Source of the DNA: Oceaniferula flava
GTDB taxonomy: Bacteria; Verrucomicrobiota; Verrucomicrobiia; Verrucomicrobiales; Akkermansiaceae
Assembly: GCF_016811075.1 (NCBI RefSeq)
Contig: NZ_JAFBGL010000002.1
Coordinates: forward strand, 248,001-312,000
Direction: 5' to 3'
Length of the DNA: 64,000 bases
Shown: one piece after another, positions 36,050 to 42,957 of the stretch
Position numbering within the stretch: position 1 is the first letter of the stretch
Layout: every line of letters begins with the position of its first letter
Translations under genes and position numbers: made by a program
The notes under the pieces: generated by a model
Databases searched by the model: none
What the model was told of the DNA's origin: nothing
The model's input: only the letters and a program-made list of their open reading frames with translations

Positions 36050-36282
36050 TCAGAAGTCGCGCGTAACGTGCCAGTGGAGCACGCCCTCAACACAAGCAAC
36101 CTCGAAGAGGTGACATAGACTAGCGCGGGGTGACAAGCCCGGGAATCAGACCGGCCCGATACATCGAGTTCCGGAGGAACGATAGAAGGCGAACGCGTAA
36201 CTTAACTAGCCATTAGGATGCTGAAACAGGGCACACGGACGGTTTAAGAAGACAACAGGTTAAAATGATCTCATGATTGAAT
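36050..36282 (+). other. CRISPR-proximal intergenic region, candidate leader with a structured element
   Basis: A 233-bp gap without a gene, upstream of the first repeat in the direction of crRNA reading. It contains the tight hairpin GTTCCGGAGGAAC followed by GATAGAAGG, and a second GC-rich stem around CGGGGTGACAAGCCCGG. I recall similar dispersed structured elements from PVC genomes but cannot verify it. The last 60 bp before repeat 1 are AT-rich, as expected for a leader. Confidence 0.45.
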
Positions 36283-37765
36283 GCTTTGCCTTGATTCCAA
36301 AACCCAACAGGGCAACATTCTTCCGGCTCGTCGACCTCTTCGATGATGGCTTTGCCTTGATTCCAAAACCCAACAGGGCAACATAACCACGGAACAATAG
36401 CCTATCTCGTCGCCGCTTTGCCTTGATTCCAAAACCCAACAGGGCAACATCCATGAGTCTTTAGCCATCGGGTAGGACCAGCTTTGCCTTGATTCCAAAA
36501 CCCAACAGGGCAACATCGCACCGGCCGCGTGGTCGAGGTCATTTGCGCTTTGCCTTGATTCCAAAACCCAACAGGGCAACATATACTGCGTGGTCAGTGT
36601 CCGCTTGTAGATGCTTTGCCTTGATTCCAAAACCCAACAGGGCAACATTCGATAAGATTATACCCCTCCCACGATGGGCTTTGCCTTGATTCCAAAACCC
36701 AACAGGGCAACATTAGACTCGCATCCCCCTTGAGCCCATCCATGCTTTGCCTTGATTCCAAAACCCAACAGGGCAACATCTTGGCGCATAGTTCAGCCCC
36801 TAGCTTTGGGCTTTGCCTTGATTCCAAAACCCAACAGGGCAACATTTTCGCACGAATGCCGAACCGTTTTAAGGTGCTTTGCCTTGATTCCAAAACCCAA
36901 CAGGGCAACATCAAGATCCCGGTCATGTTAAGGGATCCGAGGCTTTGCCTTGATTCCAAAACCCAACAGGGCAACATGCATTCATCTATGAAAACCAGAT
37001 CGGGCTTGCTTTGCCTTGATTCCAAAACCCAACAGGGCAACATTCCTCTACGTTCGATTTACGAGACATCGTAGCTTTGCCTTGATTCCAAAACCCAACA
37101 GGGCAACATTGTATCAATCACGTTGTCGCTGCCGTCATTGCTTTGCCTTGATTCCAAAACCCAACAGGGCAACATTCTTTGCGCTAGACATCACGATAAG
37201 CCCTTGCTTTGCCTTGATTCCAAAACCCAACAGGGCAACATCGTGGGTCACGTATGAAACCGAGTCAGCGCTTTGCCTTGATTCCAAAACCCAACAGGGC
37301 AACATAAGTCAATCACACGACCGACACCATCCAGCGCTTTGCCTTGATTCCAAAACCCAACAGGGCAACATCAGCTCCGCGAAAGGGGCATCCGATAGGC
37401 CGCTTTGCCTTGATTCCAAAACCCAACAGGGCAACATACCCTCAGGCGAGGTGATCCGGCAGTCATAGCTTTGCCTTGATTCCAAAACCCAACAGGGCAA
37501 CATATCCTTCACCACCACCTCGTCATCTTCCTTGCTTTGCCTTGATTCCAAAACCCAACAGGGCAACATTAGCGTTGTGTGCGGCTCTTTATTCCGAAAG
37601 CTTTGCCTTGATTCCAAAACCCAACAGGGCAACATCTTCTTGTCAGCTGCGAAGAAGGCTTTGCCGCTTTGCCTTGATTCCAAAACCCAACAGGGCAACA
37701 TTAGGTGTAGTGTGTAGGTTGTTTCTAGTGCTTTGCCTTGATTCCAAAACCCAACAGGGCAACAT
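36283..37765 (+). CRISPR. CRISPR array, 23 repeats and 22 spacers
   Basis: Twenty-three copies of a 36-bp repeat that begins GCTTTGCCTTGATTCC and ends CAGGGCAACAT. All copies look identical. The 22 spacers are mostly 30 bp, with one of 29 and two of 28. The strand is fixed by the tracrRNA: its anti-repeat pairs with the 5' half of the repeat as read on the plus strand. crRNAs therefore run on the plus strand, towards cas2. Each repeat contains TTGATT and, 16 bp later, CAACAT, which could act as a promoter inside every repeat, as known for Neisseria and Campylobacter type II-C arrays. The repeat ends (TTGCC and GGCAA) can pair. Nothing in the window clearly matches a spacer. Confidence 0.98.
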
Positions 37766-37797: not shown

Positions 37798-38133
37798 TTA
37801 CCATAGTAGTGTTTGGTCTGGGAGTGTCTCTGGAGGCACTTCCTCTGCGGGGCTTCCATGGATGATGTAGGAGCGTTCCCATTGGGCGCGGGTAATGTAA
37901 ATGGCACGGACGGAGCCTTCTGGGGGCATGTGGGCTTTGACGCGGCGAAGGTGGGTTTGCTGGCGAGAGGCGGTGACACAGGGGCGAATGTAAACGCTGA
38001 ATTGCATCATCTGGTAGCCGTCCTCGATGAGGAATTTACGGAAGTTTGTAGCGGCCTTCCGTTCCTTTTTTGTAGTGACCGGGAGGTCGAATGCTACCAT
38101 CAGCCAGCCCATTTTGAATTTGAGTGTGTCCAT
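37798..38133 (-). CDS. cas2: CRISPR-associated protein Cas2
   Basis: A 111-residue Cas2, the structural partner of Cas1 in spacer integration. The beta-alpha core WLMVAFDLPVTTKKERKAATNFRKFLIEDGYQMMQFSVYIRPC is typical of type II-C, and the conserved aspartate is in FDLPV. It begins inside the cas1 3' end (34-bp overlap if the ATG at 38133 is used, 13 bp if 38112). I chose 38133 because type II-C Cas2 proteins, such as that of Neisseria, have about ten residues before the first strand. The stop lies 32 bp from the array. Confidence 0.96.
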   Translation of the reverse strand: MDTLKFKMGWLMVAFDLPVTTKKERKAATNFRKFLIEDGYQMMQFSVYIRPCVTASRQQTHLRRVKAHMPPEGSVRAIYITRAQWERSYIIHGSPAEEVPPETLPDQTLLW

Positions 38134-39029
38134 GGTTTATAAAGTCCGGATTTTTGCTCGATGAGAGCTTTGCGGAAGGAGCGGATGACGCCTTCGATGC
38201 AGCTGCGGATATCGAGATGGAGCCCAAAGTAATCGATGAGCACTGCAGGGAAGCCTGTAACCCAGCGGCGGAACTCCGGACTAACGTTCCAATTGTCAGT
38301 TTCCTGACAATCTGGATGTTGTTTCACCCATTGCGCGACGCGCCAATCGACGCAAGGGCGGAAAGGCTCCATGAGATCGTATGCTAGTGGGGTGGAGCGT
38401 TCACGTACAACGTGGTTGATGCCGAACGTGGGGTCAATTCCAAGAGCGAAGCAGTTTTGCAGCACGGTGGAGAGCAAAACTGCGTAGCCGTAGTTTAGAA
38501 GCTGATTGATGCCCCCTTCATTCCGTCCGCGCTTGAAGTCATCGGTTTCGGCAACGGTATCACCGTAGATATCCCAAAACGCACGAGCGCAGATGGATTC
38601 CTTATGTTGCTTACGGCCTTTGGCGGTCATTTCGAGAAGGGGAATGGCTCGATGAGATGGGCCGATTTGCTGGGCGAGGCTTAGTTGGTTCAGAGTTTTG
38701 GCATTGATAGTTTTCTTCCAGAGATTGTCGCGGATTTTTTTGGGGAGGCTGATCTGGGCTCGGGTGAGAAGGGTGTCGGTGCTACGGTTTGCGGGAAGGA
38801 CGAGAGAGGCCGGCTTGAAGGATTCACAGAGGACCAGGGCGACGCCGAGTTTGGCGGCTTCTAGCAGGAGCTTGGAGTGGATGGAGGCGGAAAATGAAGT
38901 TATTACAATGGCGGCAACGTCCTCAAGGGGGATGGAATTGGAGCCTTCTGGTGTTGTGCAGGTCAGTTGCCCTTTCTTGCATGAGATAGAGCACTCGGGG
39001 GTGTCGATGCTGACGATGTGATAGGACAT
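38100..39029 (-). CDS. cas1: CRISPR-associated endonuclease Cas1, type II
   Basis: A 309-residue integrase that inserts new spacers together with Cas2. The metal-binding residues are visible as E144 (KESICARAFWDIYG), H206 (FGINHVV) and E221 (YDLMEPFRPCVDW). The GGINQLLNYGYAVLLSTV helix is the Cas1 signature. The N-terminal beta domain starts HIVSIDTPECSISCKKGQL. A GTG at 39050 could add seven residues. I chose the ATG at 39029, where the family starts. It lies 220 bp after the cas9 stop, not directly in tandem, and has a possible own promoter. Confidence 0.97.
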   Translation of the reverse strand: MSYHIVSIDTPECSISCKKGQLTCTTPEGSNSIPLEDVAAIVITSFSASIHSKLLLEAAKLGVALVLCESFKPASLVLPANRSTDTLLTRAQISLPKKIRDNLWKKTINAKTLNQLSLAQQIGPSHRAIPLLEMTAKGRKQHKESICARAFWDIYGDTVAETDDFKRGRNEGGINQLLNYGYAVLLSTVLQNCFALGIDPTFGINHVVRERSTPLAYDLMEPFRPCVDWRVAQWVKQHPDCQETDNWNVSPEFRRWVTGFPAVLIDYFGLHLDIRSCIEGVIRSFRKALIEQKSGLYKPWTHSNSKWAG

Positions 39030-39249
39030 AAATCTAACGGTATTATACACAATGCCCGATCTGCGTCGTAAGCGTCAACAATGAAAACGATGACACCAGA
39101 TAAGCCCTGCATCATCTTTCCAAGGTTTTGGAAAGGGATGACAGTGCAGAGGAGTTTATCAATCCGAGCAGGTCGGAGATAATCGAGATACCGTGGGTAT
39201 AGTTTTGCAGAGAGCAAGCGGCTTGCGCATAGCCCATCAAAGACTGTTT
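39030..39249 (-). other. 220-bp interval between cas9 and cas1
   Basis: Unusually long gap for a cas operon. A minus-strand frame covering 39298 to 38963 is open through it, overlaps both genes and gives a 111-residue product without recognisable domain. I do not call it a gene. A TATAAT hexamer sits just before cas1. Confidence 0.5.
39042..39047 (-). promoter_or_regulatory. Perfect TATAAT -10 box before cas1
   Basis: TATAAT on the minus strand ends 12 bp before the cas1 ATG, which would place a start of transcription only a few bases before the codon. A TTGACG further upstream is 26 bp away and too far for a standard -35, so the assignment rests on the -10 box alone. Confidence 0.4.
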
Positions 39250-42200
39250 TTACGTGTCCCACCCTGAGTAAGTATTTGTGACAATTTCCATGCCACATTC
39301 AAGCAGAGGGTCGAGTGTTTTATTCATTCCCGACCAAGCAACTCCGTTACGGGCCGTGATATAGGCAGGACGGATGAGGTCGAGTAGAAATTTTCCCTTG
39401 TTGTTTTTGATAGATACTATTTTCCAGATGCCGATGTAATCCTGTTGCGAACGTGGAGGGTTCGCTTTCAGGCGAATGAGCATGCCGTTTCTTAAAATGC
39501 GCGGGACCTGTCCATTATTTATCTCTGTTATTGCATCAAGCTGACGTTGGACTTGGTGAAAAGGGATAACTTGGGGTTCGGGATCAAGCACAAGACCGAA
39601 GTTCTCCCCGATGATGAGAGCTCCATTGACAGCTTTGAGTTTACCCGAGCCATGGTGGGGCTTTGGACCTAGTAATTTATCTGGACGCTCGGTTCGGATT
39701 TTGTGAGTTTTTACTCTGATATTGCTTTCGGTGGTTGATGTTTTCTGATGTAGCTTGACCTGTTCTTGAGAATACTCCGTGATACCCCAAGTCATTAGTT
39801 CGGCTTTTGTCCCCGAGCGGTTGGCCGGAATGTGTTGCACGACGCGGCCTTGGGCGAGGTGATGAATAACTTGCTCTTTGACGTCCTTGTGCAGCGGATT
39901 AAGGCTGAATTCTGTGCGGACTTTGGAAATGTCTTTTTTGTCTCTGCGCTCGTGTTCACTGAATAGTTTGAGCGACCGGAGGAACTTTTTCTCCTCCTCA
40001 GTTTTGTTGCGGTTAACGAGGGCTTGCCAGATCTTGCCTGACTGGTTCTGGCCAAATTGGGTGAGCGGGAAGTAATGGGTGATGAGCCCGATAGTCAGGG
40101 CATCGAGAGCGTGGTGCAGGTGCGTCAGGCTGCGGATTTCGTCTTTGGGTTTTGGCACACGGCGCAGGATGGCGTGGCAATGTGGGCAATGGGCTTGGGA
40201 GACAGAAATATCCTCTGGCCAAGATAGAGGCTTTTCACACTCGTCATTCGGACAGACGGGTGCTGCTTTGACGGCTTTTTTGTTTGCAGGATCGGGTGTT
40301 CCGAGGGCTGGAAACTTGTTGTATCCATCAGTGACGAGTTGACCTGTTTCCCGGTCTCGTTTTTCCAACCAACGCATGGCTTCGTTTCCGCAGACATTGG
40401 GATGGCCGAGAGTGCCGAGTAAACTCCATGATTTTCTGATTTCTCCCGTGGCGATGCCTGGGATGGAGACAAGGTTTGCATGGGGGAGTCGTTTAATTAG
40501 ACCGCGCATGGCGAGTTTAATGAGGTGACTGGACTGTGTGAGTGAGCCTTCGGTGAACCCTTGTTCCTTCTTCTCGAACGTAGTGACTTCTAGTAGTGCC
40601 TTACGTGCGCGTTGGCGTTTGCGGTCATCGTCGTGGCCTTTAACTTTGAGTTTACCTACGAGTTTGAGGTAAGGCTTCTCGCCTAGAATCGATAGTAGTT
40701 CCTTGTTAGGCACTTTTTTGCCGCCTTCATCGATAACAAACTTTCTGGCTGTGCGGTTACCCTTCCAGCGGTTGACTTCTGGCCATGTCAGTACGAGCGC
40801 GTGCAAGGCATTGGTCTTGCGAGAGGAAAACGGGATGATGTGCTCGAGTTCAAGTTTGGGTAGTTCGTAAGCATCGTATGACTTCCCTGTAAACGGGCAA
40901 GTCCAGCCCATATCCATGGCTATGCGGCACTTGCGGATGAGCCCCCCAGTTACAGGTAGGGTAGGAGCTTCTTTTTCGAGGTGCGAGACAGCGGCCTTGA
41001 AGTCTTTGAGTCGACCATTAAGCTCGCTTGCTATCTCCTTGGCAGTCTTGCCCGACAGTTCTTTGACTTCGCGGGCAACCTCTACGGTGATTTCGTTAAT
41101 GGATTTTTCGTCGTTCGGGGCAAACTCCTTGATCATATCCTCAAGAAGACGTTCGAGAATGAGAAGCCTATGCCGGACAAGCGGGTTGTTGGTTAGTTTT
41201 TCAAGAGGGCGTTTTTGCAGGAGTTGGTTAACCTCTGAATTAGGCACGGAAAATTCGTAGAGAACACCATCGGATGGTTTTCGTTCTCCTTTTTCTTGGT
41301 CTGTGGCCAAGCAGGCTTTTGTGGCATCAAAGCCAGCGAGGATTTCTTGAGTAACTTGTTTCAGCACGGGGCGGGCAAAAGGAGCACGCCCTGTCGGCCA
41401 CTTCACGGAGGCTTTTGTGCGTTGGCAAAAATCATCAATATCGGCGAAATTCTTTTTCGCTTTTTTGAACTGCTTTTCGATTTCGCTTTCCAGGGCGGCT
41501 TCATTACCTGTTCCCTTGGTTTGTTCGATGATCCAGTGAAGGTTGACCGAGTCGCCCTTTTGCCAAGTATCAACTGCTGATGCATCCGTTGATTCGGGAA
41601 GGAATTTCCAGAATGGGGAGAGTTTAGCACGTGTTCCCTTGGCCTTGTGAAGCTCGTGCATCACGGGATCAAATACGAGCGCTTCCTCGCTATCCGGGTG
41701 CAGCTGGAAGTAGGTGTGAATGTTTGTGTTAGAATTGGGGTGATGCTGCTGAATGATTGTTTCCAGATCCTTGTGAGTGAGCCTGCCCTGATCTTGGGCT
41801 GTTTTGAAAATGGCTTGTCTGGTAGCGGCAGAGACCGGTTCGCCGTCGGCCTTGAGGTTGGCTAGAATCCTGGCTAACCGATATTCAAGAAATTCAGGAC
41901 ATTTTTTAGCAGGAACTTTGGCATCACGTTCCGCAATGCGGCAGGCCTCTTTTTCATCGGTGCCTTTTTCAATCTCTGCTCTGTAGATTTTCGCCCAAGT
42001 GATGGGACAGCGCGATATGATGCGGTTATCAAAGCGGGGAACGAGTTGGCCGAACAGCAGTCCTCCATGATACCGCTTAGGAAGCTTGATCTTTGCTTTG
42101 GTAAGTAATGTCCGTTCCTCGTGAGTCAAATCCCTGTCGGGAAAAATAAGTTTGCAGGTGGTGGAGTCCAGACCTGCGATTTGGTCGCAGTGCAGATCGA

Positions 42201-42816
42201 GAATGCGTGATACCTCCTCTGTTATTATCGAGCGAGGATAGGCTGTATTGAGTGTTTTGTATGGAAGGAATGAGGATATTTTTTTATCCACATCGGCAGG
42301 TTTGAGATCGAGTAACTGACAGACAGTCTCAGCCATTGTATGTGTGCCGAATTTGTTGAGTTGTTCCTTCGCATTTTTGACTTTTTCAGTGTCCTCAGAA
42401 TCATCATCGTCCTGCCGCGACCAGCGGGAGTTTCCGTCGTAGCCGCGGTTGTGGGCATACCAGCGGAGGACGTGCCAGAGTTCGAGTGCCGTGAGTTTTC
42501 TCACACCTGTGAGGGCAGCTGAGGCCAAAAGAAACGGCGCTGCATGACCCGGCTGGTCAAGTTCTTCTCGGGTTAGGACGTTTCTGTGCTCAAGCCAGAG
42601 CTTGAGCCGCTCAATACGCTGCCGTGTGGCACGAATATTGCGTCGCGTGCGGCGGTGATCGCGTCGTGTGGATGCAAGGCAATCATCTGCGGGAAAAGTC
42701 ACAACTCCCGCCCCTAGGATTTTTGGGTGTAGGTTTGGCGTTTTTTCTAAAACGGCCCAGCCGATGGATGAATGACCAATGTCGAAAGAGAAGGATAAGT
42801 TTTTGCTTGAGGGCAT
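39250..42816 (-). CDS. cas9: CRISPR-associated endonuclease Cas9, type II-C
   Basis: A 1188-residue crRNA/tracrRNA-guided DNA nuclease. RuvC-I is FSFDIGHSSIGWAVLE with D12. The Arg-rich bridge helix is RRDHRRTRRNIRATRQRIERLK. RuvC-II is ITVEVAREV with E579. The HNH domain has LELEHIIPFSS with H659 (Asp of the usual DHI replaced by Glu) and NRWKGNRTARKF. RuvC-III is LHHALDAL with H901/H902 and D905. All catalytic positions are therefore present. An extra Cys4 segment lies between HNH and RuvC-III: C855-x4-C860 and C877-x2-C880, in CPNDEC and CPHC. Length, the absence of csn2 and cas4, and the gene order cas9-cas1-cas2 make it type II-C. The C-terminal PAM-reading domain is about residues 1000-1188, but the PAM cannot be predicted. 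Confidence 0.98.
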   Translation of the reverse strand: MPSSKNLSFSFDIGHSSIGWAVLEKTPNLHPKILGAGVVTFPADDCLASTRRDHRRTRRNIRATRQRIERLKLWLEHRNVLTREELDQPGHAAPFLLASAALTGVRKLTALELWHVLRWYAHNRGYDGNSRWSRQDDDDSEDTEKVKNAKEQLNKFGTHTMAETVCQLLDLKPADVDKKISSFLPYKTLNTAYPRSIITEEVSRILDLHCDQIAGLDSTTCKLIFPDRDLTHEERTLLTKAKIKLPKRYHGGLLFGQLVPRFDNRIISRCPITWAKIYRAEIEKGTDEKEACRIAERDAKVPAKKCPEFLEYRLARILANLKADGEPVSAATRQAIFKTAQDQGRLTHKDLETIIQQHHPNSNTNIHTYFQLHPDSEEALVFDPVMHELHKAKGTRAKLSPFWKFLPESTDASAVDTWQKGDSVNLHWIIEQTKGTGNEAALESEIEKQFKKAKKNFADIDDFCQRTKASVKWPTGRAPFARPVLKQVTQEILAGFDATKACLATDQEKGERKPSDGVLYEFSVPNSEVNQLLQKRPLEKLTNNPLVRHRLLILERLLEDMIKEFAPNDEKSINEITVEVAREVKELSGKTAKEIASELNGRLKDFKAAVSHLEKEAPTLPVTGGLIRKCRIAMDMGWTCPFTGKSYDAYELPKLELEHIIPFSSRKTNALHALVLTWPEVNRWKGNRTARKFVIDEGGKKVPNKELLSILGEKPYLKLVGKLKVKGHDDDRKRQRARKALLEVTTFEKKEQGFTEGSLTQSSHLIKLAMRGLIKRLPHANLVSIPGIATGEIRKSWSLLGTLGHPNVCGNEAMRWLEKRDRETGQLVTDGYNKFPALGTPDPANKKAVKAAPVCPNDECEKPLSWPEDISVSQAHCPHCHAILRRVPKPKDEIRSLTHLHHALDALTIGLITHYFPLTQFGQNQSGKIWQALVNRNKTEEEKKFLRSLKLFSEHERRDKKDISKVRTEFSLNPLHKDVKEQVIHHLAQGRVVQHIPANRSGTKAELMTWGITEYSQEQVKLHQKTSTTESNIRVKTHKIRTERPDKLLGPKPHHGSGKLKAVNGALIIGENFGLVLDPEPQVIPFHQVQRQLDAITEINNGQVPRILRNGMLIRLKANPPRSQQDYIGIWKIVSIKNNKGKFLLDLIRPAYITARNGVAWSGMNKTLDPLLECGMEIVTNTYSGWDT

Positions 42817-42840: not shown

Positions 42841-42957
42841 TCGGAATCAAGACAAAGTTTGAAACGCAAGTCGGCTCACTGCATTGCACACCGTCATCAA
42901 AAGCGTTTACTTCCTGTGGCCCCGCCTTTCTGATCAGAGGCGGGGTCGCTTTTTATA
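42841..42957 (+). ncRNA. tracrRNA of the type II-C system
   Basis: GGAATCAAGACAAAGT (42843-42858) is an anti-repeat: it pairs with the first 16 bases of the plus-strand repeat at 14 Watson-Crick positions, one G-U and one mismatch. The tail can fold with AAACGC (42862-42867) against GCGTTT (42903-42908) and ends in a strong terminator. It runs divergently from cas9, whose start codon is only 25 bp away. The 5' end is not precise. Confidence 0.88.
42920..42954 (+). terminator. Intrinsic terminator ending the tracrRNA
   Basis: CCCCGCCT (42920-42927) pairs with AGGCGGGG (42938-42945), followed by TCGCTTTTT. The T-run lies on the plus-strand side only, which supports a plus-strand transcript. 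Confidence 0.88.

Follow-up and report, generated by a model that had tools for sequence, protein, structure and literature searches.

A putative Cys4 zinc ribbon gained within RuvC-III by three related type II-C Cas9 proteins

The type II-C Cas9 encoded in the window (the whole 64,000-nucleotide stretch of Oceaniferula flava DNA analysed here) carries a Cys4 insertion in the loop immediately before the catalytic helix of RuvC-III, an element that is real, under selection and rare. The position of the insertion, its single origin, the conservation of all four Cys residues and the strong selection on it relative to the flanking linker are established by the comparisons described below, in which three sequences provide the whole of the carrier evidence. 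The segment itself is very likely a zinc ribbon. We favour the explanation that a compact ribbon of two knuckles, gained once in a small type II-C clade, would bind one zinc ion and would project at the entrance to the RuvC pocket, next to the invariant K891 and R895. There it may help to catch the displaced non-target strand or bring it into position for cleavage by RuvC, much as the TNB zinc finger fills the equivalent RuvC slot of TnpB and Cas12. Taken as a whole this explanation is tentative, falling a little short of an even chance. Cas9 and Cas12 have a RuvC fold in common, but it is in TnpB and Cas12 that the literature covered, which is a part of the field, describes a zinc finger beside the last catalytic Asp. 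Because close relatives of this natural Cas9 lack the ribbon, the two kinds offer a clean comparison for strand loading and nicking, and the insertion also points to a place next to the RuvC pocket where added sequence is tolerated.

The Cys4 motif and its CRISPR locus

The cas9 gene (39250–42816, minus strand; 1188 aa) scores 215 bits against the NCBIfam model TIGR01865 (E = 1.9e-63; cut-off 100). Its catalytic residues D12, E579, H659, H902 and D905 are intact and invariant among relatives, to which the protein shows about 34–53% identity across the aligned members of the phylum. The RuvC and HNH active sites are thus both present, as is characteristic of a type II-C Cas9, and the HNH domain (residues 640–690; 40747–40899, minus strand) matches Pfam HNH_4 (E = 2.1e-11). 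The gene is adjoined by cas1 (38100–39050, minus strand; TIGR03639, type II Cas1, E = 3e-42) and cas2 (37798–38133, minus strand; TIGR01573, E = 2.3e-19), and a repeat search found a CRISPR array of 23 repeats of ~36 nt at a spacing of ~66 nt (36282–37765, plus strand). No other gene-sized open reading frame is located between array and cas9; judged over this interval, the gene set is that of type II-C, with cas1 and cas2 but neither csn2 nor cas4, and a tracrRNA. The window Cas9 resembles other type II-C Cas9 proteins (GeoCas9, NmeCas9 and the Akkermansia type) in its domain order and catalytic residues, in the cas1 and cas2 genes that adjoin it and in having a tracrRNA.

The Cys4 core reads C855-x4-C860-x16-C877-x2-C880 and occupies 40177–40254 on the minus strand, the four codons being at 40254–40252, 40239–40237, 40188–40186 and 40179–40177. 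Translation confirms the four Cys residues, their x4/16/x2 spacing, H659 and D905 as given in the original prediction, whose motif end at 40257 is one codon too far (the true span is 40254–40177). The core opens a putative zinc ribbon of residues 855–886 (CPNDECEKPLSWPEDISVSQAHCPHCHAILRRV; 40159–40254, minus strand), which is conserved in two other carriers and has CPNDEC and CPHC as its two knuckles. Because the surrounding loop varies in both length and sequence, one could ask whether the Cys pattern arose by chance in an unconstrained region; however, C-x(2,4)-C-x(8,30)-C-x2-C appears in 0.25% of 20,000 shuffles of this 17-Cys Cas9, and the four Cys are retained in three diverged proteins while the identity of the adjoining linker has fallen to 12%, so that a chance origin is scarcely credible.

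No Pfam zinc-ribbon model exceeds its cut-off (the best are DZR, E = 0.054, and DNA_ligase_ZBD, E = 0.25), and PHROGs and NCBIfam give only weak matches to the insertion. Searches of the PDB returned chance-level matches for the ribbon, with a query headed by four flanking residues from the G045 protein that lie outside the motif, and no useful match for a consensus-like RuvC-III query. In AlphaFold2 models the mean pLDDT is 36 for residues 750–925 alone and 32 for the full protein with one relative in the alignment, values too low for either model to be used.

Position within RuvC-III and likeness to TnpB

The insertion was originally placed between HNH and RuvC-III, but it lies inside RuvC-III, since a RuvC-III strand and helix precede it. 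In a family profile built from 20 relatives and aligned to the solved GeoCas9, residues 785–801 (IPGIATGEIRKSWSLLG), ahead of the Cys4 motif, align to GeoCas9 VNGRITAHLRSRWNF, and this alignment defines the strand and helix just N-terminal of the insertion (residues 783–800, VSIPGIATGEIRKSWSLL; 40417–40470, minus strand). The profile motif IPG-x-x-T-x-E-I-R-K-x-W corresponds to the same GeoCas9 segment, and the alignment resumes 3 residues on at R...HHAVDA; it leaves GeoCas9 just 3 residues in the loop where carriers have an insertion, which in the window protein comprises residues 805–890 (86 aa; 40147–40404, minus strand) as delimited by the alignment and by loop lengths. By motif position, the SpCas9 counterpart of residues 783–800 is KVITLKSKLVSDFRKDF, after which come a very short loop and then K974-V-R976...HHAHDAY.

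Directly downstream of the insertion is the RuvC-III catalytic helix K891...R895...HHALDA (40099–40146, minus strand), assigned from its invariance and by SpCas9 numbering. R895 corresponds to SpCas9 R976, and H902 and D905 to H983 and D986; R895 stands six residues ahead of the first His of HHALDA, the same spacing as from R976 to H982 in SpCas9. K891, R895, H901, H902 and D905 are invariant in all 46 Cas9s compared. With a strand and helix upstream and R...HHALDA downstream, RuvC-III is thus split by the insertion directly before its catalytic helix. In SpCas9, K974 and R976, which lie in the counterpart of the insertion loop, are needed for non-target-strand cutting. The proposal that the ribbon stabilises the linker that moves HNH finds no support, as the insertion lies beyond the L2 linker and the RuvC-III helix and strand that precede it.

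The TNB of TnpB is a CCCC zinc finger (C331, C334, C351 and C354, with 16 residues between the pairs) inserted between RuvC beta5 and alpha4, just ahead of D361, and TNB domains of Cas12 help unwinding and the loading of DNA into RuvC (PMC10097598). Like the TNB of TnpB and Cas12f (PF07282), the Cas9 insertion is a Cys4 element in RuvC just before the helix of the last catalytic Asp: by alignment, residues 785–801, 805–890 and 891–906 place it between RuvC beta5 and the third-Asp helix, and 16 residues again separate its Cys pairs. It differs from the TNB of TnpB in that its first pair is x4 rather than x2, in that it is preceded by an extra segment and a long linker, and in that the enzyme also has an HNH domain. 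Moreover, the catalytic Asp follows the last Cys by 25 residues in Cas9 and by 7 in TnpB, so the geometry may differ. There is no detectable sequence relation to PF07282, which is absent from the Pfam matches up to E = 10 (HMMER filters drop many above about 0.1) and gave no match in a search of the window genome; the likeness to TNB is therefore one of place and type, not of membership, and is most probably convergent.

The RuvC position, the TNB-equivalent interval and the 16-residue spacing lead us to favour a ribbon that would hold the strand at the RuvC mouth. Position and analogy are the basis of this strand-guiding role; the chance that the ribbon acts on the RuvC and non-target-strand side is a little below even. 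In TnpB itself the TNB was observed well away from the end of the heteroduplex (PMC10097598), and even the role of the analogue thus varies. It is possible, but rather doubtful, that a ribbon gained independently in the TNB slot loads the non-target strand here as well, in which case class 2 effectors of type II and type V would have converged at the RuvC lid.

Distribution, origin and selection

The loop bounded by residues 804 and 891 was compared in 46 Cas9s of one phylum, the window protein included. In 43 of them the loop has 10–64 residues (median 15) and at most one Cys, as in G160 with its 15-residue loop LACPEVLDENGNVRP; in the other three (the window protein, G699 and G045) it has 86–94 residues and all four Cys. 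The carriers belong to the same family and to three different genera. The expectation that most Cas9s have no such motif at this place is thus borne out: alignment to other Verrucomicrobiota Cas9 proteins found the four Cys kept in two relatives against 43 non-carriers, the motif is absent from the PDB alignments inspected, and the possibility that it is common among published II-C structures was not seen in those inspected. The RuvC-III loop is an insertion hotspot among these Cas9s. The loop of L009 (G073) and L013 (G091), in a second clade, has an unrelated 64-residue insertion rich in Lys and Glu, without Cys pairs and probably helical, and a third clade (L030, L031 and L041, in G397, G430 and G284) has charged-rich insertions of 41–45 residues in the same loop.

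In a tree on 781 columns, from which columns filled in <60% of the rows were dropped, the insertion among them, the three carriers group together with an SH-aLRT of 99, and their clade falls among the non-carriers. This shows a single recent gain within type II-C and not a relic of IscB or II-D. Across the family, a RuvC-III query matched 24 of 260 genomes, 3 of which have the ribbon; no further carriers were found in a class-wide genome sample or among the viral contigs, plasmids and phages searched, and a search of the genome itself for a donor of the ribbon found none. The same query gave no Cas9 match in any of 12 other genomes of the same genus, and the nearest Cas9s belong to other genera; horizontal transfer or frequent loss of the cas9 locus may lie behind this. 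In two genomes cas9 occupies two reading frames (L011/L014 in G102, 516+621 aa; L040/L048 in G249, 423+703 aa), and these are frameshifted genes or assembly errors.

Kinship with the Cys-rich segments of IscB or II-D proteins had been raised in the original prediction. CX(2-4)C motifs are indeed abundant in Cas9d and HEARO proteins (PMC9755519), which like the carriers would combine such ribbon motifs with a Cas9-like nuclease, and the window Cas9 scores against the NCBIfam Cas9d model (E = 3.2e-36). The score is, however, 125.3 bits against a cut-off of 375, so that this 1188-aa protein does not fall within Cas9d. Furthermore, the zinc finger described for Cas9d lies within HNH (PMC9755519), whereas the putative ribbon of the carriers lies in RuvC-III and is newly gained in a derived clade. 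An inherited IscB or Cas9d segment is accordingly very improbable. A search for zinc in papers on the structures of IscB, IsrB and Cas9d found no mention of it.

Between the window protein and G045, the more distant of the two other carriers, the ribbon is 79% identical (23/29), as compared with 67% for HNH, 48% for residues 350–1188 overall and 12% for the linker preceding the ribbon. These differences indicate that the ribbon is under selection. In G699 the corresponding identities are 75% for the ribbon and 38% for the linker. The spacer between the Cys pairs of G045 is one residue different in length, with all four Cys retained, and among carriers CPNDEC is constant whereas the second knuckle varies (CPHC, CPCC and CPDC); a reading of CPHC as a thiol-redox motif was rejected on this variation. 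No other multi-residue insertion specific to the carriers was found in the alignment. The two Cys knuckles kept across homologues give good support to the original reading as a putative small zinc ribbon, and the conservation is, on the residues compared, of the pattern expected of a metal site whose surface also has a function.

The main rival to the strand-guiding reading is a purely structural role, that of a staple in which zinc would fold a long surface loop clear of RuvC with no nucleic-acid contact. The loop is a length hotspot and evidently tolerates passenger inserts, since other clades have unrelated insertions of 35–64 aa there without Cys pairs, and I788 and A789, carrier-specific residues in the strand adjoining the insertion, suggest local repacking. 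A staple would need little beyond the Cys, but the 79% identity of the ribbon, which takes in CPNDECE and HAILRR, exceeds that of HNH, and we regard this alternative as somewhat unlikely. Conservation past the Cys could also mark a surface for docking a protein, such as Cas1-Cas2 in spacer acquisition, or one directed against a phage anti-CRISPR; a rare, lineage-limited element fits an arms-race or adaptor surface. Yet no partner was found, and the set of cas1, cas2 and cas9 is ordinary, which leaves docking improbable.

The tracrRNA and binding of the guide

The tracrRNA is encoded just upstream of cas9 (42843–42955, plus strand) and consists of the anti-repeat GGAATCAAGACAAAG, a short middle hairpin and a terminator, as recognised from sequence, conservation and fold; its fold has a z of -3.8 relative to shuffles, and it has no match in Rfam. 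Zinc ribbons often bind nucleic acid, and the end of this one with its flank is basic (HAILRRVPKPK), so the ribbon could instead bind the guide RNA, either at the tracrRNA tail or at the repeat:anti-repeat duplex. However, the two carriers and eight non-carriers compared share one tracrRNA architecture, to which the carriers add no extra RNA element. By homology, moreover, the loop lies beside the RuvC active site. The likeness of the tracrRNAs with and without the ribbon makes binding of the guide less likely, and we consider it distinctly unlikely; the earlier suggestion of the tracrRNA tail in particular is unsupported on the same comparison. Both carriers with a readable tracrRNA have a very short middle hairpin. 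In G045, a 21-nt tandem repeat of ~11 copies (L084, 3897–4123), which is not a CRISPR array, is located just upstream of cas9 and the tracrRNA.
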